Shown here: positions 14,760 through 57,572 of the stretch, in pieces
How positions within the stretch are numbered: position 1 is the first letter of the stretch
Layout of the letters: every line of letters begins with the position of its first letter
Origin: Oscillospiraceae bacterium
Lineage (GTDB): Bacteria > Bacillota > Clostridia > Oscillospirales > Oscillospiraceae
DNA length: 64,000 nt
Reading direction: 5' to 3'
NCBI GenBank assembly: GCA_902795045.1
Contig: CADBJU010000003.1
Coordinates: 186,001-250,000, forward strand
The notes under the pieces: model-generated
What the model was told of the DNA's origin: nothing
The model's input: only the letters and a program-made list of their open reading frames with translations
Database searches by the model: none
Translations under genes and position numbers: made by a program

Positions 14760-17700
14760 TTATTTTGTGGTTCTCGCCACACGGTGGGCGATGTTCTGCC
14801 ACAGGTGGGGGATGATGCCGAAATCTCTCTGCAGCGATTGCGGCAGCGTGGGGATCCGGTCATACAGGATCTCCCAGTATTCGTAGCGGTCATTGCCGAA
14901 ATCCAGGATCTCGATGGTCTGTGTGCGGCTCTGGCTGCGGCGGGCCTGCCGCAGCCCTGTGACCACCCCGCGCAGCTCGGCCCGATGACCGTTGTACGCA
15001 AGCTTTACACGTACATGATCGCCGATGCCCGGCGACACGCCCTCATCCAGAAACACGGTCATGCAATGCTCATTGAGCTGCGTGGTGATGCCTGCAGCAG
15101 AGCCGGTGCCGCCGTACAGCACGTCCACATTCACGGGGATGAAGTCCTGCACCTTCACGCTCTCCCCGTCATCATCACGTCCGTCCACCAGGAACATGGA
15201 GAGGACCAGATAATAGAGGTTCCGGATCAGCCAGAACAGCAGGATCAGCAGACTGACCACATGCGGTCTGTCCATAATCCACAGCACGCGGACAATGCCG
15301 AACACCGACAGCAATGTCAGAATCAGGAACGGCAGCATGGAGCGGATATCGGCGCCCTGTTTTTCGGCCTTGCGCGTTTTGTCCGTTACCTTGAAGGCAG
15401 AAAGGCTGATACCCAGCGATTCCTTGATGATCGGGATCAGCAGGTGCGGCATGACGCTGGTTTCATAGATGCCGCTCCACTTGTGCGAGATGGTCCGCTT
15501 GCTGCATAGCTTCAGGCACACATCCTGCATGATGTACATGGGCAGCCAGAAAACCAGCAGCTCCAGCCAGTTGCACCGGAAAACAGGCAGGGCGAAAACG
15601 GCAAACAGCAGCGGCGAGAGGATATAGATCAGGTTTTTGATCGGGGAATACCAGTAGATCACGGAGCTCCAGTAGCTGATTTTCTGGTCGAGGCTGAGAT
15701 TTTTCCGCTTCCAGATTTTCAGCTGTCTCGCCGTTGCGATGACGCCCCGGCCCCATCTGGTGCGCTGCTGGATATGCTCTTTGTAGGTGTGGGGGGTCTG
15801 GCCGCTGGCCAGGGGCTCGGGAAGGGCGAGGCTCACATAGCCGTGCGACTCGATCAGAAGCCCGGTTGCAAAGTCCTCCGTGATCGACCCCGTATAAAAT
15901 CCGCCCACGTCCTCCAGGGCTTTTCTGGCGATCACCGTATTGGAGCCGCCGTAGATCACGCTGTTGCTGGAGGTCTTGGCAGGCTCTATGGTGCGGTAGA
16001 AAAAGTCCTGCTCGTTGGGGGCCTGTTTTTCGGAATAGAGCGCGTGCTGAAACACATCCGGGTCATAGAAGCACTGGGGCGTCTGCAGCAGGCCGAGGGG
16101 CATGCGCTTATCCGCGGGCAGCTTCCTGTTGCGCTCTTCGGCGTCCACAAAATAGGGGATGGTTTTCAGGAGAAAATCGCTTCTCGGGATCATGTCCGCA
16201 TCCAGCGTGACGATATAGGGCGCGGTGGTCAGGGCCAGGGCGTGGTTCAGATTCCCGGCCTTTGCCCCTTTGTTGTCCGGGCGGTCAAAGTAGCCCACGC
16301 CCATTTCTTCGGCAAGCGCCCGCATTTCGCCGCGGCGGTTGTCGTCACAGATCCAGATATGCACCTTCTTCGGGTCCGGATATTTCAAATGTACGCAGCC
16401 GTTTACCGTTCTGCGCAAAAGGTCTGTTGGCTCATTATAGGTGGCGATGAAGATATCCACATCCGGGTATGCATCCTCCGCGATTTCCGGCAGGGGATGC
16501 TCCCTCATCCCGAACAGGCTCCGGAAGAGGACAAGCGATTCCGCAAAGCCCAGGATCTCCACCGCCAGCAGCAGGATATTGGCAGCAACGGGCAGAACGC
16601 CGAAGCCCTTCGGGATAGAATAGCGGACGCGCCAGCATAGATAGATCAAGGTACAGAGAATGCTGAGCATCAGCGCGCACGCCGACAGCAGGTGCTCCTT
16701 TGTCAGCTTCTCCTTTTCGCCTCCATCCCCGCCGCGAAGAAGTTCATCATAGGTGCGCTTTTTCTTTTTTGCGGTGCGGGACACAAGTCCCGCAGCCGCG
16801 GCAAACAGCGAGACCGCAAGAACTCCGATGCCTGCGAAAAGGGGCCATGCGTGCAGGGTGCCGGTCCCCCGCTCTCCCAACGCAGAGTACAGGAGGGACC
16901 AGATCCTGGAAAGACGCCCCTTTACCAGCGTGTCCGCCGGAATGGGGATGCTCTTCGGGTCCTTTCCGGAGAGCAGGGCTTTGACCCACTGGCCGCTGTC
17001 GGTGAGGTCTTCATCGCGTATGGGCTTCTCCGGCTCAAAGCCGGGCCGGAACATAGCGGAGGATTCATTCTTGTCAGAAAAGCTCCATACGGCGTAGCCG
17101 ATGCTGTTGCGGTTGAGATAATCAAACCACTGCGCGGCCATGGAAAAATTGAGATCGCCGTCGCCGCTGGCCTCGCTGAGACCGCATTCGGTGACAAAGA
17201 CCGGGAGTCCGCTGTCGACCGCGGCCTTCAGTTCATGCAGCAGTCCTTCTTTGTGAGTAGCCGCGTAGAAGTGCAGCACCGCCATCACGTTGTCATAGGG
17301 CACCGGCCGCAGGACGGCGCTGCCGAGATTCTTGTCATATACCGGTGTACCGACCAGGATGACAGAGTCCGGGATCTGCCTGCGGATCACCGGGATCACC
17401 TTGTCACAGTAGTCCAGGATGTCTGTCCAGCCCGTATCACCGTTGGGCTCATTGCAGATCTCAAACAGCAGGTTCGGCACATCCGCGTACTCCGACGCGA
17501 CAAGCTCAAAGAATGCCTTGGCCTCTTCGGCGTGTTCGTTGGGATTTCCCTGCTCCAGGATGTGCCAGTCCACGATCACATACAGATCGGCGGCGATCGC
17601 CGCGTCGATCCCCTTTCGCAGCAACGTCAGGCTCTCCTCCTCATGGCCGCCGCAGTATTGGGAGGCATACATGGCAAGACGGACGAGGTTTGCGTTCCAT

Positions 17701-17975
17701 TCCGTCGAAATCTGCCGAAAGAGCGCCTCATTGACGAAATCCGGGAACCAGGTGAGTCCATGAGTGCTCACGCCGCGCAAAGCCACGGTCCGCCCGGCTT
17801 CATCGACCAGTTTTGTCCCCTCCACATGCAGCCTGCCGTTTTCAGTGGGGCGGGCCGTGAGTGCTTTTTCCGCCTGCGCCGCATCCATCCGTGACAATGC
17901 GGCGGCTTCCCCGCAGATTGCCGGGGCAGACAGGAGCAGTATCAGGCACAGAAGAAGAGATAGTGTTTTTTTCAT
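14760..17975 (-). CDS. fusion of GH5 endoglucanase, cellulose-synthase-type GT2 and PilZ-like domain
   Basis: 1,071 residues. A signal peptide is followed by a GH5 domain (about 35-330) with FEICNEPNG near residue 173 (acid/base Glu) and FVTECG near 260 (nucleophile Glu). After membrane helices near 371-480 comes a BcsA-like GT2 domain with all processive-synthase motifs: ICDDNRRGEM (~543), TLDADMIPR (~591), SITEDFATG (~697) and QQRTRWGRG (~738). Four more helices follow, then a C-terminal beta domain (~928-1025) placed like the PilZ domain of BcsA but without a visible RxxxR or D/NxSxxG. It should export a beta-1,4-glucan while an extracellular hydrolase trims it. In described systems these are separate proteins (for example BcsA and BcsZ). 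RBS GGAGG, ATG at 17975. Confidence 0.92.
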   Translation of the reverse strand: MKKTLSLLLCLILLLSAPAICGEAAALSRMDAAQAEKALTARPTENGRLHVEGTKLVDEAGRTVALRGVSTHGLTWFPDFVNEALFRQISTEWNANLVRLAMYASQYCGGHEEESLTLLRKGIDAAIAADLYVIVDWHILEQGNPNEHAEEAKAFFELVASEYADVPNLLFEICNEPNGDTGWTDILDYCDKVIPVIRRQIPDSVILVGTPVYDKNLGSAVLRPVPYDNVMAVLHFYAATHKEGLLHELKAAVDSGLPVFVTECGLSEASGDGDLNFSMAAQWFDYLNRNSIGYAVWSFSDKNESSAMFRPGFEPEKPIRDEDLTDSGQWVKALLSGKDPKSIPIPADTLVKGRLSRIWSLLYSALGERGTGTLHAWPLFAGIGVLAVSLFAAAAGLVSRTAKKKKRTYDELLRGGDGGEKEKLTKEHLLSACALMLSILCTLIYLCWRVRYSIPKGFGVLPVAANILLLAVEILGFAESLVLFRSLFGMREHPLPEIAEDAYPDVDIFIATYNEPTDLLRRTVNGCVHLKYPDPKKVHIWICDDNRRGEMRALAEEMGVGYFDRPDNKGAKAGNLNHALALTTAPYIVTLDADMIPRSDFLLKTIPYFVDAEERNRKLPADKRMPLGLLQTPQCFYDPDVFQHALYSEKQAPNEQDFFYRTIEPAKTSSNSVIYGGSNTVIARKALEDVGGFYTGSITEDFATGLLIESHGYVSLALPEPLASGQTPHTYKEHIQQRTRWGRGVIATARQLKIWKRKNLSLDQKISYWSSVIYWYSPIKNLIYILSPLLFAVFALPVFRCNWLELLVFWLPMYIMQDVCLKLCSKRTISHKWSGIYETSVMPHLLIPIIKESLGISLSAFKVTDKTRKAEKQGADIRSMLPFLILTLLSVFGIVRVLWIMDRPHVVSLLILLFWLIRNLYYLVLSMFLVDGRDDDGESVKVQDFIPVNVDVLYGGTGSAAGITTQLNEHCMTVFLDEGVSPGIGDHVRVKLAYNGHRAELRGVVTGLRQARRSQSRTQTIEILDFGNDRYEYWEILYDRIPTLPQSLQRDFGIIPHLWQNIAHRVARTTK

Positions 17976-18200: not shown

Positions 18201-20828
18201 TCAGGCTTCGACTTCCGCTTCGTCTTCCTGCTCCTCCTGCTCGTGCTTGCGGCTCATGTTCAGCACACTGCCGACGTGGCTGTTGTTGAGGATCACCACA
18301 TTCCCATCCGCGTCGGTGATCTCCGTGGTGCGGATGCCCATATCCGTGACATCTCCCGTGACACCGGAGACGCTCACATGGTCGCCCACATGGATGGAGC
18401 CCTCCAGCATCATGAAAAAGCCCGCGAGCAGGTCGGAAGCCATGCTCTGGGCGCCCATGCCGACGGCAATGGAGAGGACGCCTGCCGAGGCCAGCAGCGT
18501 CTTGGTGTTCACGCCGAACATGGACAGGATGCGGAAGAGGAGAAAGATGCACGCACTGTAGCAGATGACGCTGTCGATGAGTCTGGTGATGGTCCTGGAG
18601 CGCTTGTTGAGACGGCTTTCCACAATCTTCAGCATTGCCCGCGCGAAAAACACGACGCACAGTGTACCGGCCACGATGAGCGTCGCCGCCCAGACGGAAA
18701 ACAGATGGACGCCCTTGGCCCACTTTCCGTCGAAGATGAAGGCAAAGGCGGGCCACATGGCTCCCGCGGACAGTATCGCCGTATATATTGCCAGCAGCGA
18801 CAGGAAGATCACATAGCCGTTTGCAAAAACCATCAACGAATTTTTCCTGCCGGGCTGTCTCTCCAGCTTCACGCGGATATCCTCGACAAGCCGGGCGCAC
18901 AGCATACCGGCCCCCAAAAGGTAGACCAGCAGCAGGGCCAGCACTCCCGCAATCAGCCGTGCACTGATGACGCGCACCTCACGGTCCGGGTTGGAGGGAA
19001 CGATGTACAGGAGACTCTTGCCGGCGTTCGAACTGCCGGAGATATATACGTGCTTGTCGTTATATGTCGAAAAGCCCTCGATCTCGGTCCCCGGCTCGTA
19101 GTTGGGCAGATGGTCCGCCACCCGCTGGCCGATCATCTTCGCTTCGGTGTGCGCGAGGAAGCGGCCTTCCGCGTCGTCGACGACGGCGGCGGCATGCCCG
19201 TTCTGCACAACGAAGCCGTTGACCGCGCTTTCGATGCTCTCTCCGTCAAGCTCGCTCTGCGGGGTCTTCGCGTCAAAGACAGACAGCAGGAAGCCGTCCG
19301 GCTGCCCCTCGGCGTCTTTCAGGAGGATCGCCGCGCCGAGCTGGGGCTGCCCGGTATAGGGGTCGGCCGCAGGCCCCGCCAGCGCTTGGGGGTAGCCCAG
19401 CAGTACCGGGCGGTACTCCTCGCTGAGGTTTTCGCCGACAGCAAAGCCGGTATAGCTGTTGCTGGCGGCAAGCTCCCGCCCGCTCCGGTCAAAGAGCATG
19501 AGGTACTCCGTCCCGGCAAGCTTGTTGAGCTCGGCAAGGCCGCCGTGGGTCAGGTATTCCGGGTGCCGCGTCACGAAATCCGCCAGGGTCTGCGCGCGTG
19601 TGCGGTATATGTCCGAATAGGTCTGGCGAATCAGCTCTCCCTGCTGCTCGTGCCAGTCGATCTCATATTGAACGGTCTCCCGTTTTGCCGTGGCGACCAT
19701 GGCATTGACGGAGCGGTTTTCCAGCATCATCAGCATCACGGCGAAAAGGCCCGTGACGATCAGCACCGAGATCATGCCCGGCATGAGCGTCCGGACTGCC
19801 CGTTTCCGGAAGGCCGCGCCCCGGCTCTTGTCGGGCGCCTCCTTAGACAGGCGGCGAAACACGTAGATCTGGAACAGGATCATGCCCAAGGCAATGATGG
19901 CCGCAAGGGTCCTGGCCGTGTAGTTGCCCGAGTGCTCCAGGGTGTCGAAGCTGTCCATCAGCATTACGTCAGCATCGTACTCCGGGTAGTGGAGCAGCAC
20001 GGCCAGGCAGCGATTGCCAAGCAGCTTGATCTCCTTGCTGAGAGGAACGCCTCCCCTGTTTCGGAAGCTGCCGCTGTCATCAAAGACGCGGTCCAGCTCG
20101 TCGATGAACTGCGCGGTCTCCTCCGGGGACAGGCCGTCCTGAGGATAATACGCGATGGTTCCGTCGCCCGTTCTGACCGCGGCGCCGCCATCCGTCCCGG
20201 ACAGCGTGCGCTTGAGTATGTCGGGCCAGTCGCCGAGGGAGTGGTACAGCTCCACCAGCGCCGGGCACGGGAACGCGAAGACCAGGCTCTGCTTCGCAGT
20301 GGCGAGGGGCTGTCTGACGAGGAAGCTGCCTTCCTCCTCTGGCGACTCCCCGTCCGGAGAGAGGGCGGGATAGAGCGTCAGAGCGGGTGTGCCCGGCTCG
20401 ATGCTCTCGAAATGCTCTCGAAGAGATCCCTCCAGCTCAGCGGGGTCGGCGGCGGCAAGGATCTGTCCGCGTCCGTCCAGCAGGAAAACACCGGCGGCGG
20501 AAACCGTGCCGCGCGTAAGCTCCAGCCTCTCGGTGTCAGCAAGGTCGTCCTCTTCCGCGTACAGCTTCGCTCCCAGCTCGCTGCGGGCCAGAGCATCGCT
20601 TTCATACACGCGGGTGCGCGTTTCAAACTCCTGCCTGCGTTTCTCCACGATCTTCGGAACTTCCAGGATAAACTGATCCAGCATCTTCTGCCCGCTGTAA
20701 CAGCTCAGCACCGATACCGTAAGAAACACGATCACCGCGATGATCAGAAAGGCAATCACGGTAAAGCCGATCAGCTTTATCCCGCTTTTTTCCCGCAGGG
20801 GGACTTTGATTTTTTCCAGAGCACTCAT
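18201..20828 (-). CDS. MscS-family mechanosensitive channel with two large extracytoplasmic sensor regions
   Basis: 875 residues from the ATG at 20828, which has AGGTG 8 nt upstream; a TTG two codons earlier is less likely. The C-terminal part has the MscS pore helix and beta domain: TLLASAGVLSIAVGMGAQ and SDLLAGFFMMLEGSIHVGDH (about 770-810), then VTDMGIRTTEITDADG. Upstream are several helices and two separate extracytoplasmic regions of roughly 250 residues (about 45-300 and 385-620), both resembling Cache-type ligand sensors by their placement between helices. After the beta domain it ends in an acidic tail, so the cytoplasmic alpha/beta cage of E. coli MscS is missing. Its terminator is at 18120. 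Confidence 0.85.
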   Translation of the reverse strand: MSALEKIKVPLREKSGIKLIGFTVIAFLIIAVIVFLTVSVLSCYSGQKMLDQFILEVPKIVEKRRQEFETRTRVYESDALARSELGAKLYAEEDDLADTERLELTRGTVSAAGVFLLDGRGQILAAADPAELEGSLREHFESIEPGTPALTLYPALSPDGESPEEEGSFLVRQPLATAKQSLVFAFPCPALVELYHSLGDWPDILKRTLSGTDGGAAVRTGDGTIAYYPQDGLSPEETAQFIDELDRVFDDSGSFRNRGGVPLSKEIKLLGNRCLAVLLHYPEYDADVMLMDSFDTLEHSGNYTARTLAAIIALGMILFQIYVFRRLSKEAPDKSRGAAFRKRAVRTLMPGMISVLIVTGLFAVMLMMLENRSVNAMVATAKRETVQYEIDWHEQQGELIRQTYSDIYRTRAQTLADFVTRHPEYLTHGGLAELNKLAGTEYLMLFDRSGRELAASNSYTGFAVGENLSEEYRPVLLGYPQALAGPAADPYTGQPQLGAAILLKDAEGQPDGFLLSVFDAKTPQSELDGESIESAVNGFVVQNGHAAAVVDDAEGRFLAHTEAKMIGQRVADHLPNYEPGTEIEGFSTYNDKHVYISGSSNAGKSLLYIVPSNPDREVRVISARLIAGVLALLLVYLLGAGMLCARLVEDIRVKLERQPGRKNSLMVFANGYVIFLSLLAIYTAILSAGAMWPAFAFIFDGKWAKGVHLFSVWAATLIVAGTLCVVFFARAMLKIVESRLNKRSRTITRLIDSVICYSACIFLLFRILSMFGVNTKTLLASAGVLSIAVGMGAQSMASDLLAGFFMMLEGSIHVGDHVSVSGVTGDVTDMGIRTTEITDADGNVVILNNSHVGSVLNMSRKHEQEEQEDEAEVEA

Positions 20829-20916
20829 AGTCAATCACCTGTATGAAGCTGTATTGATTGTTTGCCGGCGCCGTCTGTCCGGGCGCAGATCGGGCAGATC
20901 GAAGATATATAAATAG

Positions 20917-21101: not shown

Positions 21102-22193
21102 ATGTCTACCTTTACCATGATCGTAATCATGAGTGTTCTGATGATAATCGGGGGCTTCGCCCTGATGGCGACGCCGCTCATCACCTTCATCAGCGCAGGC
21201 TATTTCATCATCACGCTGTTCTTTATCTACGGTATCTTCGGCGTCATCCGCGGGATCTCCGAAAAGCGCTACGGCAAGGAATTTATCTTTGCGGCGGTCA
21301 GCCTGGTCCTGGGCCTCATCGGTCTGTTTGTTCCCGGCGCTGCCGCCATGAGCAATTATGTGCTGCTCTATATGGCGGCCTGCTGGTTTTTCATCCACGG
21401 CATCCTGACCATCGTTGCCGCCGTTGAAAACAAGAAGAGCGGCGCCGAGACCGGCGCTGTGGTGCTGGGCGTCATTCTGGGCGTGCTGGAGCTGATCACC
21501 GCTGTCTACTCCGCGATCCACCCCTCCGTGATGGCTGTCAGCTTTGGCATTCTCATCGGCCTCTACTTCGTTGAGTCCGGCATTGACGCCATTGTCGTCG
21601 GCATGGTCAAATGCGAAGGCGGCAACAACCTGACCGTTCTGTTCACGGTCATGGGCATTCTGACGATCATCGGCGGCCTCGGCATGCTCTTCACCCCGCT
21701 GCTGACCTTCCTGAGCGTCGGCCCCTGCATCATCATTCTGTTCTTCCTCAACGGCGTTCTCGGCATCGTCCAGGCGATCTCCGAAAAGCGCTACGACAAG
21801 GAGTTCTACCTTGCCCTTGCAAGCCTCATCCTTGGCATCCTCGGCTGCGTGATCCCCGGCGCCGCTGCCATGAACAATTCCATCCTGCTCTATATGGCCG
21901 GCATCTGGTTCTTTGCCCACGGCATCATGACCATCGTCAAGGCTTTCAACAGCAAAAAGAAGAACGCCGGCACCGGCGTCGTGGTGATCGGCGTCGTGCT
22001 GGGCGTTTTGGAGCTGCTCATGGCCGCCTACTCCGTGGCCCATCCCGCGGTGCTCGCCCTGAGTCTCGGCATTCTGATCGGCCTGTACTTCATTGAGTCC
22101 GGCGCCAATATGATCTTCATCGGAAACGCCTTCTCCGAGGCCGTGGCCGCCGGTCGTCAGCAGCAGAAGGCTGCAGCCCGCTCCGCGAAGTAA
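21102..22193 (+). CDS. duplicated DUF308/HdeD-like membrane protein
   Basis: 363 residues from the ATG at 21102, preceded by AGGAGG. The protein is an internal duplication: each half has about six short hydrophobic helices and nearly the same block, GISEKRYGKEF...VPGAAAMSNYVLLYMA in the first half and AISEKRYDKEF...IPGAAAMNNSILLYMA in the second, each followed by a WFF-HGI-TIV helix. HdeD-type proteins are linked to acid or envelope stress in enterobacteria; function here is unknown. It lies 85 bp upstream of the membrane-bound esterase-like gene on the same strand and may share its transcript. Confidence 0.85.
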   Translation: MSTFTMIVIMSVLMIIGGFALMATPLITFISAGYFIITLFFIYGIFGVIRGISEKRYGKEFIFAAVSLVLGLIGLFVPGAAAMSNYVLLYMAACWFFIHGILTIVAAVENKKSGAETGAVVLGVILGVLELITAVYSAIHPSVMAVSFGILIGLYFVESGIDAIVVGMVKCEGGNNLTVLFTVMGILTIIGGLGMLFTPLLTFLSVGPCIIILFFLNGVLGIVQAISEKRYDKEFYLALASLILGILGCVIPGAAAMNNSILLYMAGIWFFAHGIMTIVKAFNSKKKNAGTGVVVIGVVLGVLELLMAAYSVAHPAVLALSLGILIGLYFIESGANMIFIGNAFSEAVAAGRQQQKAAARSAK

Positions 22194-22278: not shown

Positions 22279-24252
22279 ATGAAAAAACTGTTTACCGTTG
22301 ATGATATTGTTGTCGCTTTCATTTCGGCGCTTGGCTACGGCTTCGGCGAGACGATCTCAAAGCTTTTCGGCTGGCCGGAGCTTGTGTGCTACGGTGTTAG
22401 CTTTGTCGTCGGCCTTGTGTTCTCGGAAATCATAAACAAGATCGCTTTCAGCAAGGCAGTCCAGAAAAAGCCGATCAACCGGATCCTTACCTATGTTTCG
22501 GTCTTTCTCATCTTTCTGATCGCCCAGTACATCTCCATCCGGTGGATGGGTGTGGACATGTTCCATTACGTGAAGGACGAGCTTCTCGGCGTGATCGGCA
22601 TGCCCATTCTCGGCTTCGTGGTGAACATGCTCATCCGCGGTCTTCGCGTCCGGAAGATCCGCAAGCTCTACGGAGACGGGAGCGAAGGATATGTGTTCGA
22701 TGTCAAGGGCAAGGACCTCGAGGAGCTGAACAAACAGAACCGGGCCGTACAGGGCAAATACAATGCCGACTGCGCGGTAAAGACGCGGACCGGCACCTAT
22801 GTCGGGGAAAAGTACAAGAAGACCGTCTGCTATCTGGGTATTCCCTACGCAAAACCCCCGGTCGGCGAGCTCCGCTGGAAGGCGCCAGAGCCGCTCCCGG
22901 ACTCGGATGCGGTGTTTGAGGCGAAGAATTTCGGTGCCTCGGCCATACAGGTCGAGCATAAGGGTTCGCTCCTCAAGCAGCACCGGCAGAGCGAGGACTG
23001 CCTCACCTTGAACATCTGCGTCAACACACAGAAGACAAAGGCCAAGCGGCCGGTGCTCGTGCTGTTCCACCAGGGCGACTTCTCCTACGGCGGCTCCGCA
23101 GATCCCCTGCTGTACGGGGCCAACTATGTGATCAGCCATCCGGACGTGGTGTTCGTAAGCTTCAACTACCGTCTGGGCATTTTCGGCTTCATTGATTTCT
23201 CGGAAGTCCCCGGCGGGGACGCTTATCCTGACGCTCTGAACCTCGGTCTGCTCGATCAGATCGCGGCGCTCAAATGGATCAAAGAAAATATCGCCGCTTT
23301 CGGCGGTGATCCCGAAAAGGTCACGGTGCTCGGCTTTGAGTCCGGCGCGTCCTCCATCTATCTGCTCTCCGCCTGCGAGCAGGCGAAGGGCCTGTTCCAA
23401 AAAGCCTTCCTGTTCGACGGCAACCCGGCTGCCGTCTATGCCTCGCCGGAGGCGTCCAGGGCCCTGGCGAAAAATCTGCTCAGGGAAACCGGGACCTCCA
23501 CGATGCGGGAGCTTTCGCAGCTTGACACGGAAGTTTTGAAGGACGCGGCACAGAAACTCTGGCAGAACATGTGCGCACCGACCTGCGACGGTGTGCTGAT
23601 CCCGGCGGACATCTATCGCGCCGCGCAGGAGGGCGCCGCCTCCGGCGTAAAATTCGTCATCGGCTTCCCGAGCAACGAAGCACAGGTATTCCGCTCCGTG
23701 CTCGGCGATCAGAACTATACCGATCTCATCAACGGGTCTGTGGCCGAAATCAAGGCCATCACGGCCGGTTCCATCGCCGACGCGATCCAGGCGTATATCG
23801 ACAAAGAGGCCGCGTCCTCGACCGAGCTGGAGGCAAAATCGAAGCTTGTCGAGCAGTGGAACGCGCTCGGCATTTACCGCAGCGCCGTGAAGCTTTCCCA
23901 GGGCGGGAGCAAGGTGCATCTGCTGTACTGGGATGAAAAGCCGCTGATCGAGAATCTGGGCTCCGGCACGGTCGACGCGGCGGCGGCGCTGCTCGGGAAC
24001 GATGAGGCACTGCAGCTGTACGGCAGCGTCATGAACGCCGACCTGTCCGAAGCCCTGCAGAGCCTGCTGCTGAAATTCATAAACGGCAATGCCCTGCAGC
24101 TTTACCCCAACGAGATCAAGGGTGTCGACGCCTTCGACTGGAAGGCGTTCCCCAAGGCGCTGATCATCTCGGACGGGAAATTCAGCTGTGAAAAACCGGA
24201 AAGCCGATTGACTGAGGTCGACGGTCTTCTGGACTTTGTCATACAGTATTGA
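22279..24252 (+). CDS. membrane-anchored carboxylesterase-like protein with degenerate active site
   Basis: 658 residues from the ATG at 22279 (RBS AGAGAGG). The first ~150 residues hold four hydrophobic segments. From about 165 a type-B carboxylesterase fold begins, with the classical GIPYAKPPVGELRWKAPEP and SEDCLTLNI. The catalytic landmarks are altered: the oxyanion HGGGF is HQGDF, the nucleophile elbow GESAG is GFESG (Ser moved by one place, about residue 350), and the region that normally holds the catalytic His (GAFHGxELPYVFG) reads GSGTVDAAAALLG. This looks like a non-catalytic, binding-type esterase domain comparable in kind to neuroligins. It ends 20 bp before the CARF-HEPN gene. Confidence 0.85.
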   Translation: MKKLFTVDDIVVAFISALGYGFGETISKLFGWPELVCYGVSFVVGLVFSEIINKIAFSKAVQKKPINRILTYVSVFLIFLIAQYISIRWMGVDMFHYVKDELLGVIGMPILGFVVNMLIRGLRVRKIRKLYGDGSEGYVFDVKGKDLEELNKQNRAVQGKYNADCAVKTRTGTYVGEKYKKTVCYLGIPYAKPPVGELRWKAPEPLPDSDAVFEAKNFGASAIQVEHKGSLLKQHRQSEDCLTLNICVNTQKTKAKRPVLVLFHQGDFSYGGSADPLLYGANYVISHPDVVFVSFNYRLGIFGFIDFSEVPGGDAYPDALNLGLLDQIAALKWIKENIAAFGGDPEKVTVLGFESGASSIYLLSACEQAKGLFQKAFLFDGNPAAVYASPEASRALAKNLLRETGTSTMRELSQLDTEVLKDAAQKLWQNMCAPTCDGVLIPADIYRAAQEGAASGVKFVIGFPSNEAQVFRSVLGDQNYTDLINGSVAEIKAITAGSIADAIQAYIDKEAASSTELEAKSKLVEQWNALGIYRSAVKLSQGGSKVHLLYWDEKPLIENLGSGTVDAAAALLGNDEALQLYGSVMNADLSEALQSLLLKFINGNALQLYPNEIKGVDAFDWKAFPKALIISDGKFSCEKPESRLTEVDGLLDFVIQY

Positions 24253-24272
24253 AAGCCCGAGGTAGCGTGAAC

Positions 24273-26159
24273 ATGGGTAAAAATATTCTTCTGACATCTC
24301 TGAACATCAAAGGGTTCGACAGGACTCTGCAATATTATTTCGCACAAAATGAGTTTGGCCGCAGCTACTGTGAAGTCATGCAAAGCATGGAGGCGAGCGC
24401 CAAGTTTATTCTGGCCCGCTTTCCCATTGACGAGATCCTTGTGATCGGAGACGAAATGTCCGCCGAAGACGAGAGCGGTATGAAACCCTTCCCTCTCAAA
24501 GACGCGGGCGAGCTCTATTCCGCTGATCCTCATACACTCTCCCCCTTCGGCCTGTACCGCTCTCGGATCGCCCAGCACCTGAACGAGCAGAGCCTGGAGC
24601 AGCAGACGTACGACGCGCTGCTGCCTGAGGAAGAGCGCGCCAAGCTCATCGCCTTCATCAAAGGCTTCCAGGAACGAAATTCCCGGCGGGAGATAAAGCG
24701 GCTCAACCGTCTGTTTGATGAGCTTGCCTCCGACCCGCAGCTCTACAATCAGTTCCGGGACGCGCTCCTCGTCGCCTTTCCGGCCGCCCGTGAGGATCCC
24801 GCACTTTATATGAAGTGGGTGAAAAACTATCTGTACATGCAGCTCAAGCCCACCGCCAAGCTGGAGATCCTCCCGATCAACGAGGATGTCCGCGTCCGTT
24901 ATATCCCTGCTGCCACTCTGGAAAGCCGGGAATATTGGGTCAACAATATCCTGGGCACGGAGCCGGACGTGTCCGACACCGGGGCTGAGACCAACCTCTA
25001 CGTCTCCCTGGACGACGACTCCACGGTGGACAGCCACCTGATGCTGAACCTGCTTGATATCCTGGTTTCCACACCGGGAAGCAACGTTCATCTGAAGAAG
25101 GTCTACAAGGTCTACGAATCTCCCGCGGAACTGTCCGGATACATCTATGACCATACTGCCGTTTTCCGCACCACCGATCTGGTCGCGGCCGCTCATGCCT
25201 TCCTGAACTACAGCAAGACGGATATGCTCGTGGATTTCTGGGAAAACAGCGGAGAGCAAAACGGCCGCATCAGCAGCCTGATCTACGCCGCGCGGCATGT
25301 GGATGTGGGCATTTCCATGTGCAACATCAAGGAGATGCAGGTTGGCATCGATCGGCTGCGCAAGATTTTCCGCGACGAGCATTCCTGGACGGAGGACAGC
25401 TATTACGGTCTTCTGTTCGGCGTGATCGCCGGGAGCATCAAGGCGGATTACCGCGCTCTGCTGGTGGGCGACGGCCCCATTCCCTTTATCGAGCTGATCA
25501 AATGGGCCTATCGCCACAAGATGTATCAGCAGGTCCTGACGCTGATCGAGGCCTATGCGCCTACAAATCTGGTCAGGTCCGGCATTTTCTACTACTGCGA
25601 TGACGAATCACAGGTGAATGACATTACGAAGCTTCTGGCGCTGCAGCGGCTGGAGCTGAAGCCCTACGAATACTACAAGCTCGACGATATCGAACACTAC
25701 TTTATCAAGTACTACGACCGGGCGGGCGTCAACCTCAAAGGCTCCAAAGATGAGGACAGGAACCTCGCCTATGCCGACGCGCGGGTGAAGTCCATCGAAA
25801 GCCGAGACCCGGCGAAGATCGGCGGATATACCGCCTGCGACAGCACCGAAACGGTGAAGAACGTCCTCTATGCCTATTTCCGCCTTGGCTATGTGCGTAA
25901 CAAGATCAGCCATGCCGACGCGGATGCGCTGGCCGAAATACGCCTGGTCGTCTCTGAGAGCGACATCAGCTCCTCCATGCTCCTGATGCGCGAGAGCATC
26001 GAGCACTTCATCATGAGCTACGAGAAGGCCCTGACAGAGGTAAAGGATAAAAAGCCGAAGATCGTCTCCGTCTCCCCCGATGCCGTCCGCAACGTCGCCG
26101 AACGCATCCGCCGCGAGCGCATCCAGGAGGAGCGCGCGCAGGGCAGCGCGAAAAAGTAA
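24273..26159 (+). CDS. CARF-HEPN protein of the Csm6/Csx1/TM1812 type, not CRISPR-linked
   Basis: 628 residues from the ATG at 24273 (GAGGT upstream). The N-terminus KNILLTSLNIKGF followed by DEILVIGDE and a later strand-helix block ETNLYVSLDDDSTVDSHLML resembles the two halves of a TM1812-like CARF Rossmann fold, which senses cyclic oligonucleotides. The C-terminal helical part has GYVRNKISHAD (Arg near residue 541), a textbook HEPN ribonuclease R-N-x3-H motif, then a helix-rich end with a charged tail. The family assignment comes from motif layout only and needs a structure search. No repeat array or cas gene is in the window. It is tightly linked to the upstream membrane pseudoesterase, suggesting a two-component sensing/RNase module. 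A strong terminator follows. Confidence 0.72.
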   Translation: MGKNILLTSLNIKGFDRTLQYYFAQNEFGRSYCEVMQSMEASAKFILARFPIDEILVIGDEMSAEDESGMKPFPLKDAGELYSADPHTLSPFGLYRSRIAQHLNEQSLEQQTYDALLPEEERAKLIAFIKGFQERNSRREIKRLNRLFDELASDPQLYNQFRDALLVAFPAAREDPALYMKWVKNYLYMQLKPTAKLEILPINEDVRVRYIPAATLESREYWVNNILGTEPDVSDTGAETNLYVSLDDDSTVDSHLMLNLLDILVSTPGSNVHLKKVYKVYESPAELSGYIYDHTAVFRTTDLVAAAHAFLNYSKTDMLVDFWENSGEQNGRISSLIYAARHVDVGISMCNIKEMQVGIDRLRKIFRDEHSWTEDSYYGLLFGVIAGSIKADYRALLVGDGPIPFIELIKWAYRHKMYQQVLTLIEAYAPTNLVRSGIFYYCDDESQVNDITKLLALQRLELKPYEYYKLDDIEHYFIKYYDRAGVNLKGSKDEDRNLAYADARVKSIESRDPAKIGGYTACDSTETVKNVLYAYFRLGYVRNKISHADADALAEIRLVVSESDISSSMLLMRESIEHFIMSYEKALTEVKDKKPKIVSVSPDAVRNVAERIRRERIQEERAQGSAKK

Positions 26160-26176
26160 GGTTTCCAGTGTGTTGG

Positions 26177-26222
26177 AATGCGCGGTTTTCCCACGAAAAA
26201 AACTGTGGAAAATCGCGCATTT
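26177..26222 (+). terminator. intrinsic terminator after the CARF-HEPN gene
   Basis: Hairpin AATGCGCGGTTTTCCCAC / GTGGAAAATCGCGCATT (one bulge, one G-U), loop of about 10 nt, followed by TTCTATTTGCGCTTTT. It ends the DUF308-esterase-CARF transcript. Confidence 0.8.
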
Positions 26223-26260
26223 CTATTTGCGCTTTTGGGCAAAAGACGTTACAATACAAT

Positions 26261-26417
26261 ATATTAATATGGGTATCGGCTTAACTCAGCAAACTGTCAA
26301 AGTGCCCGTCTCGTAGGGGTCGATCCCCAGATCGACCCGAAACGTGGGTACATTGTACAAGCTTTAAGGATCCTGCCTATATTGCTGACTAAAGCCGATA
26401 CCCACATATATTAATAT
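26261..26417. repeat. MITE-like foldback element with terminal inverted repeats
   Basis: 157 bp bounded by ATATTAATAT-GGGTATCGGC (left) and its inverted counterpart GCCGATACCC-ACATATATTAATAT (right). The inverted arms continue as TTAACTCAGCAA versus TTGCTGACTAAA. An internal GGGTCGAT...ATCGACCC hairpin is present and there is no reading frame. It lies between the CARF-HEPN terminator and the ABC exporter genes. Confidence 0.7.
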
Positions 26418-48591: not shown

Positions 48592-48748
48592 TACTCCCGC
48601 TTTGTTTTCATAGATCGGCAAAATATATTTCATTTTTTTCAAGTAATATTGAAGCCCATCGAAAAGTACCGGGATAGCTCTATGATTGTAACAATATTGT
48701 AACTTTTACAACAGCAAAAATAAGTGAACCCCCCGAAAAAGTTATGCG

Positions 48749-48836
48749 TTAATCCCATAATTACCGTGCTGGGTGACAAATGGATTTTTGAGGTTAACCA
48801 CACAATAAATAAAAAGTACCGTAGTTATGGGATTAA
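48749..48836. repeat. inverted repeat upstream of the integrase (putative arm-type sites)
   Basis: TTAATCCCATAATTACCGT (48749-48767) and ACCGTAGTTATGGGATTAA (48818-48836) are inverted copies, 17 of 19 matching, 50 bp apart. A third copy is near the left attachment repeat at 41633. The surrounding 48592-48966 stretch has no gene. It lies 130 bp before the integrase start. Confidence 0.6.
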
Positions 48837-48966
48837 GAGCGGGAATCTGATATTAAATGGAGGTATTATTGAAATATCTGATCTGATAATTGAACTTGTG
48901 ACCCCTGATTCGTCGAGGTATAATCAAGCGGGTAATGCTGACTTGCCGCAAGGAAGGAGAAGAAAC

Positions 48967-50115
48967 ATGGCAAGTCAAAAAGTGACCGCAAGCCTGCAAG
49001 ATGATAAAGGTACATGGACGGTCAGAGGGCGCGTATACGACCCCGCGACAAGAAATATGAAACAGCGCACAAGAAGCACGGGCTTGAAAGTAAAGAACAA
49101 TACAAAGCGCAAGGCCGAGGCTATGATGAAAGAGATAATCGAGCAATGGCAAGCCGAGGCTGAGGGCGTGGAGCGTTCTGTCTCTCCCCTGTTCTCTGTG
49201 TACGTCAAACGGTTTATGGACAGGCAGACAGCAAAGCGGAGAAAGGCAAACACGCTGAAAAGTTATCAAGACTATATCGACTGTCACATCCAGCCGAAGC
49301 TTGGTAACATCCCCACGGCAGAACTGACCCTTGACGTTCTTGAAAATTTCTATGCTGAGTTTCTGAAAACACACGCCGTCAGTAGTGCGCGGAAAGTGCA
49401 TGTTGTGGTAACTGGTGCTGTGAAAGAAGCTGTCCGGGATGGAATCTTTCAGTATAATATTGCTGACCGTGTGGAGTTTCCGACAAGTCATAAGTTTATG
49501 GGTGCTATGATCTATTCCGAGGCCGAGGTCAATCTTTTGCTCAATAAGGCAAAAGAGGCCGGGGAACCTATCAGGGCGGCAATAACGCTTGCTGTGTGCT
49601 ATGGGATGCGGCGGTCTGAGGTGCTTGGTTTGCGCTGGAAAGATATAGACTTTGAGCGGGAAACGCTGACCGTGTGTAACACAGTTGTCCAGAATGGCGA
49701 GTTGAGGATTGAGGAAGAGCGCACAAAGACAGCAAAGAGCCACAGGTCGATCGGCTTGCTCCCCATGACCACCCCCTATCTAAAAGAACTCAAAGAGATA
49801 CAAGCGGCGGCAAAGCTCAAAACAGATAAGGTTGTCGCATGGATGGACGGGCAGGAGGTCAGGCCGGATTTCATTTACAGGAAGACCCGGCAGTTAATGA
49901 AGAAATGCGGCTTGCCTGTAATCCGCTTTCACGACTTGCGGCACACAGCGGCCTCCCTGTTAGCTCCCCACGTCACGCCGAAACAGCTACAGGAATTTCT
50001 TGGTCATGAGGACATAAGCACCACGCTTGGAATCTATACGCATGTTCTGGACGATCAAAAGAGAGAAACGACAGCGGCAATGAACAATGTTCTGAGCTGT
50101 CTGTCAGTCATGTAA
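48967..50115 (+). CDS. int: tyrosine integrase
   Basis: 382 residues from the ATG at 48967 (AAGGAG upstream). The N-terminal AP2-like arm-binding domain (GTWTVRGRVYDPATRNMKQR) is followed by a SAM-like core-binding domain and a catalytic domain with Arg in MRRSEVLGLRWKDIDF, HDLRHTAASLL, LGHEDISTTLGIYTHV (R...HxxR...H...Y all present). The frame extends upstream, but the RBS fixes this start. It lies just inside the right attachment repeat, as integrases normally do, and should recombine the 3' end of tRNA-Pro. No separate excisionase was recognised. Confidence 0.96.
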   Translation: MASQKVTASLQDDKGTWTVRGRVYDPATRNMKQRTRSTGLKVKNNTKRKAEAMMKEIIEQWQAEAEGVERSVSPLFSVYVKRFMDRQTAKRRKANTLKSYQDYIDCHIQPKLGNIPTAELTLDVLENFYAEFLKTHAVSSARKVHVVVTGAVKEAVRDGIFQYNIADRVEFPTSHKFMGAMIYSEAEVNLLLNKAKEAGEPIRAAITLAVCYGMRRSEVLGLRWKDIDFERETLTVCNTVVQNGELRIEEERTKTAKSHRSIGLLPMTTPYLKELKEIQAAAKLKTDKVVAWMDGQEVRPDFIYRKTRQLMKKCGLPVIRFHDLRHTAASLLAPHVTPKQLQEFLGHEDISTTLGIYTHVLDDQKRETTAAMNNVLSCLSVM

Positions 50116-50200
50116 AAAGATTTTCTCTCCACTTTGTTCTGAAAGTCTGTTCTGAATGGTAACGTGCAAAATATTGAGGTTGAACTTTTTTGAGGAATAA

Positions 50201-50287
50201 AAAAAGAAAAGTTCCAAAACCTTTCGATTTCAGAACTTTTCCTGGTCCGAGTGAGAAGATTCGAACTTCCGGCCTCTTGAACCCCAT
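50201..50287 (-). repeat. second attachment site: tRNA-Pro(GGG) 3' part plus terminator (87-bp direct repeat)
   Basis: 84 of 87 bases match 41484-41570. The CCA end is at 50243 and the tRNA-like part runs to 50287. Beyond it, where the 5' half of the tRNA should stand if this were the chromosomal junction, the sequence is unrelated. This therefore looks like the internal junction of two elements inserted in tandem at the same tRNA gene. Confidence 0.85.
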
Positions 50288-50400
50288 GGTTCCAGTCAAA
50301 AGTGAAACCGGGAAATTAATTCACGAATATGTGAAAAGCCCTTAAAAATCAATCACTTTCAGCGCATTATTTTATGTTCAGTACATTGTGTTTCTCCTTC

Positions 50401-50549
50401 ATTCCAGTCAAAATTCCAGTCAGGAAAACTGCTCTGAAAAATGCCTTTGGCAACGCTCAAAATCTGACTGGAACAACATTCAAGAGGCCGTTCCAGAAAG
50501 TGCCAAATTTTGGCCTTATAGACAGATTCAAGAGGCAGCTGGAACGGCC
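50401..50549. repeat. repeat cluster before tnpV
   Basis: ATTCCAGTCA occurs at 50401-50410 and 50413-50422, TTCCAGTCA also at 50290-50298, and inverted (TGACTGGAA) near 50465. GGCCGTTCCAG (50486-50496) is perfectly inverted as CTGGAACGGCC (50539-50549). These may be ends or protein-binding sites of the TnpV-carrying transposon remnant. Confidence 0.55.
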
Positions 50550-50576
50550 CGAACGATCTGAAAAGGAGAAAAAACA

Positions 50577-50927
50577 ATGACGATCCAATACTACAAGTCA
50601 GGCGATTACTGCCTCCCCGATCTTCAGCTTCAGACACCTGATCTCTCCCCTCTCGGCAAATATGGTCGGATGAGGAAGCAGTACCTGAAAGGACAGAGAC
50701 CAATCCTCTTTTCTAATCTGCTTCTCTGCGAAATGTTGTATCAGCATCTTGCCGAGATTGACCGAACCTGTGTTGAGCGGCTGGAACTGCTCACCCGGCA
50801 CATGGCTGATCGGGAGGGCGCGACCGAAGCTCTCAAGGTTGCCGATCAGATGGAGTGGGTCAGACGGATGAACAACATTCGTAATCGTGCGGAAGAAAAC
50901 GTGCTCAACGATCTTGTTTACTGCTGA
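50577..50927 (+). CDS. tnpV: TnpV transposon-encoded protein
   Basis: 116 residues, RBS AAAAGGAG. YCLPDLQLQTPDLSPLGKYG, RMRKQYLKGQRPILFSNLLL, and the C-terminal DQMEWVRRMNNIRNRAEENV are characteristic of TnpV from Tn4451-type mobilisable transposons. Its function is not established in that family. The large serine recombinase TnpX that normally accompanies it is absent here, so this is a relic or cargo piece. The next gene starts 10 bp downstream. Confidence 0.9.
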   Translation: MTIQYYKSGDYCLPDLQLQTPDLSPLGKYGRMRKQYLKGQRPILFSNLLLCEMLYQHLAEIDRTCVERLELLTRHMADREGATEALKVADQMEWVRRMNNIRNRAEENVLNDLVYC

Positions 50928-50937
50928 GGGGGCTGAA

Positions 50938-51219
50938 ATGCAAGTTTTGGAAGAGCTTTACATGGGAGACATTCACCCCAGCGAGCGCAGCTTCAAGATG
51001 GACAGCCAGTATGCTAGGGCGCTCAATGAGGTCGTGAAGGCTGGAGATGCCCTGCTCGGCACCCTGACAGAAAAGCAGAAAGAGCAGTTTGAAGCATACA
51101 TGACCGCACAGCGTGAGGTCAATGTGCTGACCGATTTCGAGACCTTCTGTTATGCCTTCAGGTTGGGCGCAAGAATCATGATGGATGTGTTATCTGATAG
51201 TCCGATAAAAAAGATTTAA
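50938..51219 (+). CDS. DUF6809 family protein
   Basis: 93 residues from the ATG at 50938, with GAGGGGG six bases upstream. MQVLEELYMGDIHPSERSFK, then a helical AKALxE-type segment (YARALNEVVKAGDALLGTLT) and EVNVLTDFETFCYAFRLGAR, the pattern of the DUF6809/LYYGNIxPNE proteins common in Firmicute transposons. Co-transcribed with tnpV (10-bp gap). Role unknown. Confidence 0.85.
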   Translation: MQVLEELYMGDIHPSERSFKMDSQYARALNEVVKAGDALLGTLTEKQKEQFEAYMTAQREVNVLTDFETFCYAFRLGARIMMDVLSDSPIKKI

Positions 51220-51293
51220 TCAACTCAATTTCACGTAAATAATTCGCATTGCGTCATATGAACAGTATCATTTTCATATGACGCAATTATTAT

Positions 51294-51530
51294 TCAGCGA
51301 AGTTGATTTTGCATAGGCCGCTGCCGTGGCGTTCCATGAATATCATAAAGCGGGAACAGATCAGCGATTACGGGATTATAGCGTACAAAGCCAACCGTGT
51401 TGATGTCGCAGTCTGGGATCGGCTTGCTCTCAAACATCCCACCCGGTAACTGGTTTTTCAGTTGGTCATCATATATTTCAATGTGGATCTCACTGCCATG
51501 CACAATGTAGCCATGATGAATACACTAATT
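51294..51530 (-). pseudogene. C-terminal remnant of an AlbA_2/Schlafen-type ATP-binding protein
   Basis: The minus-strand frame reads HHGYIVHGSEIHIEIYDDQL, KNQLPGGMFESKPIPDCDIN, TVGFVRYNPVIADLFPLYDI, which matches the end of the helicase-like AlbA_2-domain proteins (GSEIxIExYDDRLEIxSPGG...RNPxIAxxF). A stop interrupts the frame upstream (near 51532), and after 51320 the expected G-S-G-F end is lost. It is therefore a decayed fragment between tnpV and the DUF4238 gene. Confidence 0.7.
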
Positions 51531-51548
51531 TGCCAAGTCCTTCTGTGA

Positions 51549-52427
51549 TTATCTTCTGACTTCTTTTATTATTGCTATTTGTTCATCTGTTAATGGATTT
51601 CTCGAATAGATCCAATCTCTTGCATACGCCGATATGTATCTGCAAAGGTCATTCACCTGCTCCTTGGTTTGCTTTATAAAACAGTTTCTAGCAATGGGAT
51701 CAACACTTTCTATTGGAAATAAATATAGAACCAGTCTTGAAGTCAGAGGGAAAGCGACCGCACGCGGTCTGTTATAGAGTTCCTCTTTTTTCGGTGGCCA
51801 AATAACTACAGGCCTATCCGATGTTATGATTAAATCATCTTCAGCAATGCCAATCTGAAAAGCCATCCCAGATAAATTGTTTAATGCAGTGCGAATAATT
51901 GTGTTTTTATCCCATTCTTTATTGAGACCCAAAGGCAACAGATTGAAAAGGGTGAAGTTTCTAGCCTCACGAGTGTTTATTTCAGGGTTTGATTCTTGGA
52001 GCACTTTTATACCATATTCAATCGTCTCGGGATCACGATACAATAAACAATTAATAAAAATGACAAGATAGGCTTTATCATCCTCGGATAAAATTGTAGA
52101 ACAATTTAAGCAATTAGTATTATGAGACTTGTGTTTGATTGATTGGATGACTTTGTTTGTCTGTGACTCTATTTTTCCGAAGGTTTTCTCGATTGTATTC
52201 TGCGCGACAAATGAACCATCGTCGCTCTTGATTTCATATAAATGCTTTTTATAACAAATATCCTCAACATCAACCGAAACCGGGGGTTGCTGCATACTCT
52301 TAAGATTAAACTGCCAGATCAAAGCCTTCTCATTTTTCCTATTTGCATTCTTGATCTCCGAAAAACCTCTAAGGTATGCACGAGGTATAAAATGCTCGTC
52401 TTCAGTTGGCTTTTCTCCTTTAGGCAT
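51549..52427 (-). CDS. DUF4238 protein
   Basis: 292 residues, RBS AAGGAG. Starts with the family hallmark EDEHFIPRAYLRGFS, then IWQFNLKSMQQPPVSVDVED and CYKKHLYEIKSDDGSFVAQN; later QIGIAEDDLIITSDRPVVIW and PLTSRLVLYLFP follow the DUF4238 pattern (GDxPFVxSDxPV). These proteins occur in defence islands and beside restriction systems, but their activity is unknown. It is the last gene on the strand of the restriction/Septu-like set and 59 bp from the DUF2971 gene. Confidence 0.85.
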   Translation of the reverse strand: MPKGEKPTEDEHFIPRAYLRGFSEIKNANRKNEKALIWQFNLKSMQQPPVSVDVEDICYKKHLYEIKSDDGSFVAQNTIEKTFGKIESQTNKVIQSIKHKSHNTNCLNCSTILSEDDKAYLVIFINCLLYRDPETIEYGIKVLQESNPEINTREARNFTLFNLLPLGLNKEWDKNTIIRTALNNLSGMAFQIGIAEDDLIITSDRPVVIWPPKKEELYNRPRAVAFPLTSRLVLYLFPIESVDPIARNCFIKQTKEQVNDLCRYISAYARDWIYSRNPLTDEQIAIIKEVRR

Positions 52428-52486
52428 CGCATGTCTCCTTCTCTTGTTTGAATTTTTATGTTTTGCGATAATATTAGCACAAACTC

Positions 52487-53584
52487 TTATGAGAGCTTTT
52501 TATACATACAGTTAGGGTTGGCCATTTTCCCAGTGCATTCCTGCATTGAAAAAGATGAAAACGCTGGTATCACACAAGCAGACGGAATACCTCTGCTGTT
52601 ACAAATCTTTATGATTTCTTCTCGCTTATCATCTGGCATTTTTGCTCCTATGTAGACCTTGCTGATGGGGAAAAATTTGCAGTTGTAGTTTTCATCGGTC
52701 AACATAGTATCTAAGGATATGAGGCGCCATTCATTTTGATATTTCCAATCTAAACTTTTCGTCAGGAGTCCATATTTATAAATGGCACCGACCATTTCAT
52801 CACTGACCTTTGGGTCATTCAATCCGGCAAGGCATTCATCTAGTACACTTACTCTTTCATCGCTGTAAATAACCGGCATTAGATTCTGTAGCAGAGTTAT
52901 ATTCTGCTCATCTGGAGTTGGGATCTCATATTCTACGCAGAATCCTTTGTGGCTATCCGCATAATGTGCCCACATTAGCATTGAGAAAGGATCTGTAGCG
53001 AAACAGGTGACTCTAAATTTTTTTATCAAATCACTTTGCTGGGAAAGAAACTCCTGATGAAGTGCGCGATAAAAAGCAATTTGAAGAACATTTTCCTCTT
53101 GGATATTTCTCAATATTTCATTGCATAAGGATAATGCAAATACCTGATGTGACTTGCTGAGCAGATCGTCTTTTGAGACATCGACATGGAATAATGCTTC
53201 CCATTCACTCTGATTCTTTATATGTGGAAGCAGATATAAACCAAATTCGTGTACAAATCTATCAATATTCCATTCTTTATTATACTGAAACCCGCACAAA
53301 TCGGCGTAATATTTCAGTCGAACCTCATGAAACGCCTGCTCATCTAAGTAAAGTGTAGAATCATATGGGTCGTCAAAAAGAATCGGGCTTTGCAAATATA
53401 CAGTGTTGTTCTTTAATGCTTCCTGAGAATAATTTCTTCCGTTATCTGGATTTACTATGTTTGGAAAAAACTTACACAGTTTTCGAGGTGTTAAAAGCAG
53501 AGCGAATTTTATGAAATCGCGCCAAGATATACTTTCAACCTCTCTTTTAAGGTGTGGAACTCCATTGATATAACAATAATCCAT
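52487..53584 (-). CDS. DUF2971 protein
   Basis: About 365 residues from the ATG at 53584 (nine bases after GGAGGAGA; an ATG at 53590 is also in frame). Family blocks: TVYLQSPILFDDPYDSTLYL, VTCFATDPFSMLMWAHYADS, HKGFCVEYE and KYQNEWRLI, diagnostic of DUF2971. Members are frequent in phage-defence islands. It follows the HNH gene by about 33 bp on the same strand. The conserved W-H and E residues could form an active site, but no activity is known. Confidence 0.88.
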   Translation of the reverse strand: MDYCYINGVPHLKREVESISWRDFIKFALLLTPRKLCKFFPNIVNPDNGRNYSQEALKNNTVYLQSPILFDDPYDSTLYLDEQAFHEVRLKYYADLCGFQYNKEWNIDRFVHEFGLYLLPHIKNQSEWEALFHVDVSKDDLLSKSHQVFALSLCNEILRNIQEENVLQIAFYRALHQEFLSQQSDLIKKFRVTCFATDPFSMLMWAHYADSHKGFCVEYEIPTPDEQNITLLQNLMPVIYSDERVSVLDECLAGLNDPKVSDEMVGAIYKYGLLTKSLDWKYQNEWRLISLDTMLTDENYNCKFFPISKVYIGAKMPDDKREEIIKICNSRGIPSACVIPAFSSFSMQECTGKMANPNCMYKKLS

Positions 53585-53617
53585 CACCATTCTCCTCCAA
53601 TAATCATTAGAAAATGA

Positions 53618-55935: not shown

Positions 55936-55939
55936 AAAA

Positions 55940-57571: not shown

Positions 57572-57572
57572 T

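Follow-up and report, generated by a model that had tools for sequence, protein, structure and literature searches.

A predicted CARF-HEPN RNase of a probably CRISPR-independent lineage and its facultative pairing with a membrane-anchored pseudoesterase gene

A 64,000 nt stretch of an Oscillospiraceae bacterium genome (assembly GCA_902795045.1, contig CADBJU010000003.1, positions 186,001 to 250,000; the whole stretch is termed the window) encodes a putative CARF-HEPN RNase (24273-26159) directly downstream of a membrane-anchored pseudoesterase (22279-24252). Sequence comparison suggests that the CARF-HEPN gene represents a CRISPR-independent lineage, akin to the ancillary effectors of type III systems (the Csm6/Csx1 kind). 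It is genuinely paired with the pseudoesterase gene, though only facultatively. The preferred reading, which we regard as about evenly balanced between right and wrong, is that of an RNase effector that works outside CRISPR, has a changed sensor and is in some cases coupled to a membrane pseudoenzyme. The comparisons confirm that the observation is real and that the gene pair is more than chance, since close pairs of homologues are under purifying selection and several lineages have the two genes side by side. The host genome is 2.75 Mb in 56 contigs and 92% complete, with the window on contig 3. Both open reading frames are intact, on the + strand and 20 bp apart, and a GAGG stretch precedes the ATG of the CARF-HEPN gene.

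The CARF-HEPN protein has no family match in Pfam or NCBIfam. Two PADLOC models match it, CARF2--CARF_HEPN (E 3.9e-18) and Csx1/Csm6 (E 7.4e-15), nearly all over the C-terminal HEPN half. This half contains the motif R542-N543-x3-H547 (GYVRNKISHAD), in which R, N and H are invariant in 42/42 aligned homologues. The putative CARF identity of the N-terminal half is supported by a chain of profile comparisons (labels beginning with L denote loci, and those beginning with G genomes; 101 genomes of the genus were searched). Over 291 columns, the first 300 residues of 34 core members aligned with probability 99.95 to an intermediate set (L101, L102, L103, L105 and L106), which in turn matches nine CRISPR-type CARF-HEPN proteins over 220 columns with probability 99.9. 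Direct comparison of the core and CRISPR-type N-termini aligned 87 columns with probability 88 (76.5 against the full-length set). A sequence-only reading, made by a model without database searches, had proposed a CARF-like N-terminus joined to an HEPN site, and the PADLOC matches, the invariant motif and the profile chain support this. A search of solved structures with the single sequence gave two matches, both at E 0.77. The ratio of non-synonymous to synonymous substitution rates (dN/dS) is 0.15-0.26 in nine of the ten closest CARF-HEPN pairs, which are not independent of one another, and 0.46 in the nearly identical tenth. The G+C fraction of the gene (0.564) is slightly below that of its neighbours (0.579-0.619).

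CARF-HEPN relatives were matched in 7 of the 101 genus genomes, the host genome included; the matches in G304 and G348 are partial, and that in G347 is a neighbour of Cas6. At the level of the order, two of 295 genomes gave a match, namely the host genome and a remote relative of the CRISPR type. The named collection yielded 50 CARF-HEPN loci, mostly from metagenome-assembled genomes of Bacillota, many of them rumen or gut by title. In a midpoint-rooted IQ-TREE analysis of 48 proteins, nine CRISPR-type rows fall on one side of a branch with support of 100/98, one of them, L059, being classed as CRISPR-type only by its motif and a neighbouring CARF gene. Support is 100/100 for the 34-row core clade and 84/42 for the intermediate group. 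The CRISPR-type rows have deviant composition and long branches, so the details of this tree are unsure. On this analysis the window gene is in a well-supported lineage apart from the CARF-HEPN proteins encoded beside cas genes.

The upstream gene encodes a carboxylesterase domain at residues 166-524 (PF00135 COesterase, E 1e-72 in a Pfam search). Its family was aligned with ordinary esterases at the positions that are catalytic in PF00135; the esterase rows L026, L029, L030 and L031 were unaligned at the active site. The window protein has Glu in place of the nucleophile Ser (GFESG) and lacks the catalytic His. Ten of 12 family members have Glu at the nucleophile position, the G685 copy has Asp and the distant G295 copy has Ser; the His is missing in all ten members that cover its position. 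The oxyanion motif HGG(G/A) has become HxGD(F/Y) in the family, and the acidic triad position is Glu in the window and Val in L063. Most of the ordinary esterases covering these positions retain Ser and His. By alignment, therefore, 22279-24252 is a carboxylesterase domain without the Ser-His-acid triad and not of the active-esterase type, in agreement with the pseudoesterase assignment made from the letters.

The four-helix membrane region proposed for this protein was recovered in a crude hydropathy scan as hydrophobic segments near residues 4-20, 36-52, 69-85 and 103-119. By the same scan, six of 11 homologues (window included) have four N-terminal segments and the other five have three. 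A resemblance of this part to GtrA is sub-threshold (18.1 bits against a Pfam cut-off of 26.1). In the four-segment homologues, most Lys and Arg residues lie in the loop after segment 2 and in the stretch after the last segment, which, by the positive-inside rule, suggests that the pseudoesterase domain faces the cytoplasm. The family is rare, its membrane domain being present in four of 400 genomes sampled evenly across the taxonomic family (E 1e-5), and no relative was found in the viral contigs searched. Pseudoesterase dN/dS is 0.11-0.19 in three comparisons (0.11 against G321).

Thirteen pseudoesterase loci were compared: those of the window, G321, G331 (split over two contigs), G360, G348, G390, G367, G379 contigs 20 and 27, G295, G685, L063 and L085. 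The copy on G379 contig 27 is a remnant, and its locus is also L095. A CARF-HEPN gene adjoins the pseudoesterase at five of the 13, in both gene orders and twice with a decayed partner; L063 and L085 were located through CARF-HEPN, and the pseudoesterase search of the genus alone gives 3/10 paired. Both genes are intact in the window and in L063. L085 has the reverse order, with both genes cut by contig ends; in G348 the CARF-HEPN gene is reduced to about 102 matched residues, and on G379 contig 27 an interrupted CARF-HEPN gene lies by the pseudoesterase remnant. The gaps at the five loci are 20, 28, 4, 27 and 28 bp. At the other eight no CARF-HEPN trace was found (E up to 0.1), contig ends limiting some of them. 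An esterase trace 1.7 kb from the CARF-HEPN gene of L086 is weak and was left uncounted, as it may be an ordinary esterase. Homologues of both genes adjoin at four loci beyond the window, which supports the sequence-only reading as regards recurrent adjacency, with the pairing loosened to a facultative one. Membrane sensing and abortive infection, which that reading envisaged, are candidate functions of the pair, and a dedicated two-gene abortive-infection system goes beyond what these comparisons show. L085 belongs to a different CARF-HEPN clade from the window and L063. Pairing requires at least three changes on either tree, for which one gain and two losses would suffice; the two gene orders suggest that the genes were joined at least twice.

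A substantial minority of the probability goes to a solitary CARF-HEPN effector, moving or persisting independently, whose site behind the pseudoesterase is incidental and uncoupled. The eight loci without a CARF-HEPN trace speak for it, and so do the varied immediate neighbours of CARF-HEPN genes elsewhere: MATE transporter genes, 5' or 3' (L087 and L105 by Pfam, L089 and L097 by clustering), ABC transporters (L101 by Pfam, L103 by clustering), an FGGY kinase (L080), a thiamine pyrophosphate enzyme (L098) and a GGDEF-EAL protein (L072). G321, with a pseudoesterase 93% identical to that of the window, keeps the same gene order without the CARF-HEPN gene. Against an incidental site, however, members of two rare families are neighbours in several lineages, in both gene orders and with gaps of 4-28 bp, and a rare DUF308 partner meets both. 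Relatives of the DUF308 protein encoded at 21102-22193 occur in three of the 101 genus genomes (E 1e-30), each immediately 5' of the pseudoesterase, at loci that are close relatives; a further relative adjoins the CARF-HEPN gene in L094 (20 bp), and others lie at distances of 1.4 kb (L065) and 8 kb (L091).

Comparison with G321 also bears on transcription. Directly 3' of its pseudoesterase is a hairpin (-42.4 kcal/mol, z -9.7) that corresponds to the window hairpin at 26175-26229. This places the window CARF-HEPN gene probably inside the pseudoesterase transcription unit, and the two are probably co-transcribed. The window may have gained the gene, or G321 may have lost it.

PMC4012209 describes the CARF signature as an alcoholic residue that ends strand 1, together with a basic one that follows strand 4, the latter often in [DN]x[ST]xxx[RK]; families mostly without the basic residue may, according to the same text, bind distinct ligands. 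The GGxR seen in CRISPR-type relatives is absent from the strand-4 region of the window protein (about residues 242-255). Alignment A3, used for counting, omits L081, L085, L092, L095, L096, L104, L108, L111 and L112 (cut, interrupted, gapped or marginal sequences). In it, Lys or Arg is present in the strand-4 motif of two of 34 core members, none of four intermediate members and all four CRISPR-type rows, L106 being counted among the last. Of the nine CRISPR-type proteins in the profile comparison, three of which are also in A3, seven show GGFR or GGPR, and the second effectors of L110 and L111 carry DITHGLR, in keeping with the signature as published. The strand-1 Ser/Thr is found in 33/34 core members and in only 1/4 CRISPR-type rows, and does not separate the groups. 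The altered pocket motif argues against ordinary sensing of cyclic oligoadenylate.

Type III partners are also nearly always missing. RAMPs (PF03787) and Cas1 were each found in 0/13 genomes, comprising the host genome and 12 relatives, and an exact 20-mer scan of the window revealed no CRISPR-like array, consistent with the earlier claim that the pair stands outside CRISPR. The PADLOC scan of the window lists 25 of 267 matching families, and the absence of cas genes rests on the searches of the host genome. Among the genomes of named loci, RAMPs occur in 5/45 (L100, L107, L109, L110 and L111): in one of 35 genomes with a copy lacking GGxR against three of four with GGxR (Fisher p 0.0017, relatedness ignored). 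The fifth, L111, is outside A3 and hence outside this tabulation, to which L082 and L097 add no further count because their genomes are also those of L068 and L079; L085, L092, L096, L104 and L108 were, like L111, searched for RAMPs but are outside it, and L081 and L112 were not RAMP-searched. The RAMP matches lie near the CARF-HEPN gene in L107, L109, L110 and L111. Cas-like neighbours were seen, by eye only, in L133 and L134; L106 adjoins Cas6 and a CARF protein, and L059 a CARF protein. At L056/L106 (1682-4188), a CARF2-only protein, an unknown 381-aa protein and Cas6 lie beside a CARF-HEPN gene with a GGGR motif, and no RAMP or Cas1 was found in that genome; this locus is possibly a half-way stage.

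The Cas10-palm family PF22335 matched in ten of the 101 genus genomes, four over the cut-off, and an Escherichia coli control also matched. The matches in the host genome (29.3 bits) and in G348 (27.7 bits) were rejected as Cas10, both showing HD-GYP and GGDEF motifs by eye. G309, which has a CARF-HEPN match, gave three Cas10-palm matches below cut-off; the match in G323 (110.7 bits) looks genuine, and G323 has no CARF-HEPN match. SMODS (PF18144) was absent from the host genome and present in 3/79 genomes, including 1/43 with a CARF-HEPN match; this family covers only part of CD-NTase diversity. The family PF18741 was likewise set aside, its one match in the host genome being weak, below cut-off and outside the window.

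An ordinary cyclic-oligonucleotide-activated Csm6/Csx1 protein, its ligand supplied in trans by a Cas10 or CD-NTase that escaped detection, would be in keeping with the PADLOC resemblance, with genomes that are incomplete and with the partial reach of the SMODS model. It is nevertheless improbable, as the pocket Lys/Arg is gone in 32 of 34 core members, 34 of 35 genomes with a GGxR-less copy have no RAMPs, and the 13 genus genomes have neither RAMPs nor Cas1. A toxin-antitoxin pair, in which the pseudoesterase keeps the RNase inactive at the membrane, would suit the tight two-gene arrangement and the decay of both partners on G379 contig 27, but many intact CARF-HEPN genes have no adjoining pseudoesterase and G348 retains its pseudoesterase beside a truncated CARF-HEPN gene, which makes it very improbable.

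Several observations weigh against a CRISPR-free effector with an altered sensor and a membrane partner. The CARF half is only modestly similar to CRISPR-type CARF domains when compared directly: core residues 221-300 (the strand-4 half) alone gave no profile match (probability 0.4), two CARF-only proteins gave none, and neither did a profile search of solved structures. Long branches make the join to the CRISPR-type rows uncertain, and the root is only a midpoint. An Arg near the strand-4 motif is retained in L097 and L098, which lie apart from the other members of the core clade, and loss of the motif might equal loss of any ligand. The plasmid and viral collections searched contained no CARF-HEPN relative. 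As to the partner, pseudoesterase DNA is adjacent at three of the 50 named CARF-HEPN loci (L063, L085 and L095), some of whose contigs end near the CARF-HEPN gene, and L064, 89% identical to L063, has an intact CARF-HEPN gene without a pseudoesterase.

Members of the CARF-HEPN family are dimers in which the CARF pocket controls the HEPN site, and the window protein would be expected to form a dimer governed in this way. Since the strand-4 basic residue and the GG are gone and type III partners are nearly always absent, the ligand of the sensor is probably other than a canonical cyclic oligoadenylate. By analogy with RtcR, whose divergent CARF domain binds RNA ends carrying a 2',3'-cyclic phosphate, such ends would be the leading candidate. 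The activated RNase is predicted to cut cellular RNA and so to bring about growth arrest. The pseudoesterase domain, predicted to face the cytoplasm, could hold the RNase at the membrane or gate its activity there, and the resulting unit may respond to envelope stress or infection. A fuller version, in which a CRISPR effector was domesticated outside CRISPR, its CARF domain was rebuilt for a new ligand and some hosts wire the pseudoesterase (with its DUF308/MscS-type neighbours) into an RNA-cutting alarm for envelope stress or phage entry, is more tentative and rather unlikely as a whole.

Features of the locus, with the evidence for each assignment
Feature	Position	Strand	Evidence
Membrane-anchored pseudoesterase, 657 aa from ATG	22279..24252	+	PF00135, active-site alignment, hydropathy
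Stand-alone CARF-HEPN protein, 628 aa from ATG, predicted RNase	24273..26159	+	PADLOC, HEPN motif, profile chain, tree
DUF308 (HdeD-like) membrane protein, 5' of pseudoesterase	21102..22193	+	PF03729 E 9e-26
MscS-type channel, divergent; Cache-like region below Pfam cut-off	18201..20834	-	PF00924 E 1.4e-14
Strong hairpin and T-rich tail, probable terminator, 3' of CARF-HEPN gene	26175..26229	+	Fold -27.9 kcal/mol, z -5.3

Relatives of the MscS-type channel are found close to the pseudoesterase in L043, L045, L048 and L049, of which L043 and L045 are near-copies of the window locus, and a distant MscS-type channel is near the CARF-HEPN gene in L083; this linkage is weak because MscS proteins are common. 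Between the CARF-HEPN gene and ABC transporter genes is a short element resembling a miniature inverted-repeat transposable element (26271-26403), with inverted ends GGGTATCGGCTT ... AAGCCGATACCC and flanking ATATATTAATAT repeats; each end is single-copy in the window. At 14760-17975 a single protein combines a GH5 cellulase domain with a cellulose-synthase-like glycosyltransferase region. At 48724-62326, approximately 22 kb 3' of the CARF-HEPN gene, a phage-type integrase gene is followed by a probable defence island which, among the matches listed, includes a type I restriction-modification set and Septu-like PtuA/PtuB, the source ORF of the Ptu matches being inferred from position.

The CARF-HEPN protein resembles Csm6/Csx1 in its predicted CARF-then-HEPN order, its R-x4-H type motif and its collinear profile match. 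It differs in having no nearby cas genes, in belonging to a lineage that has lost the strand-4 GG/basic motif, with nearly all searched genomes devoid of RAMPs, and in approximately 90-110 added residues inside the CARF part (about 110-220) that have no counterpart in L059. Unlike an effector of a cyclic oligonucleotide-based anti-phage signalling system, it has no SMODS CD-NTase in its own genome, within the partial coverage of PF18144. Neuroligin-type pseudo-carboxylesterases of animals are also membrane-anchored with an incomplete catalytic triad; the window pseudoesterase is by contrast bacterial, with an N-terminal multi-span anchor and a predicted cytoplasmic domain. Csx23, Cam1 and CorA are likewise membrane proteins in nucleotide-signalled defence, but they are effectors inside CRISPR loci, and no esterase domain is described for them in the accessible accounts.

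RtcR is, according to PMC4012209, a CRISPR-free CARF family mostly without the strand-4 basic residue, and so resembles the window lineage. PMC4012209 and PMC7790460 together provide a precedent for a CARF domain without Lys/Arg that binds tRNA fragments. The likeness is by motif description, and RtcR has AAA+ and HTH domains whereas the window protein has HEPN. In the accessible parts of the open literature, including PMC4012209, PMC11229360, PMC12669027, PMC10702470, PMC11090510 and PMC7790460, no pairing of a CARF-HEPN protein with an esterase-like protein was found. The CARF-HEPN clade itself may already have been described, given the existing PADLOC CARF models.

Most of what is understood of CARF-HEPN RNases comes from type III CRISPR systems and their cyclic oligoadenylate signals. 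A lineage found in many Bacillota, in which the RNase site is kept, the usual pocket motif is lost and CRISPR is absent, gives a direct means of asking what else CARF domains sense. If functional, the pseudoesterase partner would be a dead esterase serving as a membrane adaptor, an unusual role for one in bacteria.

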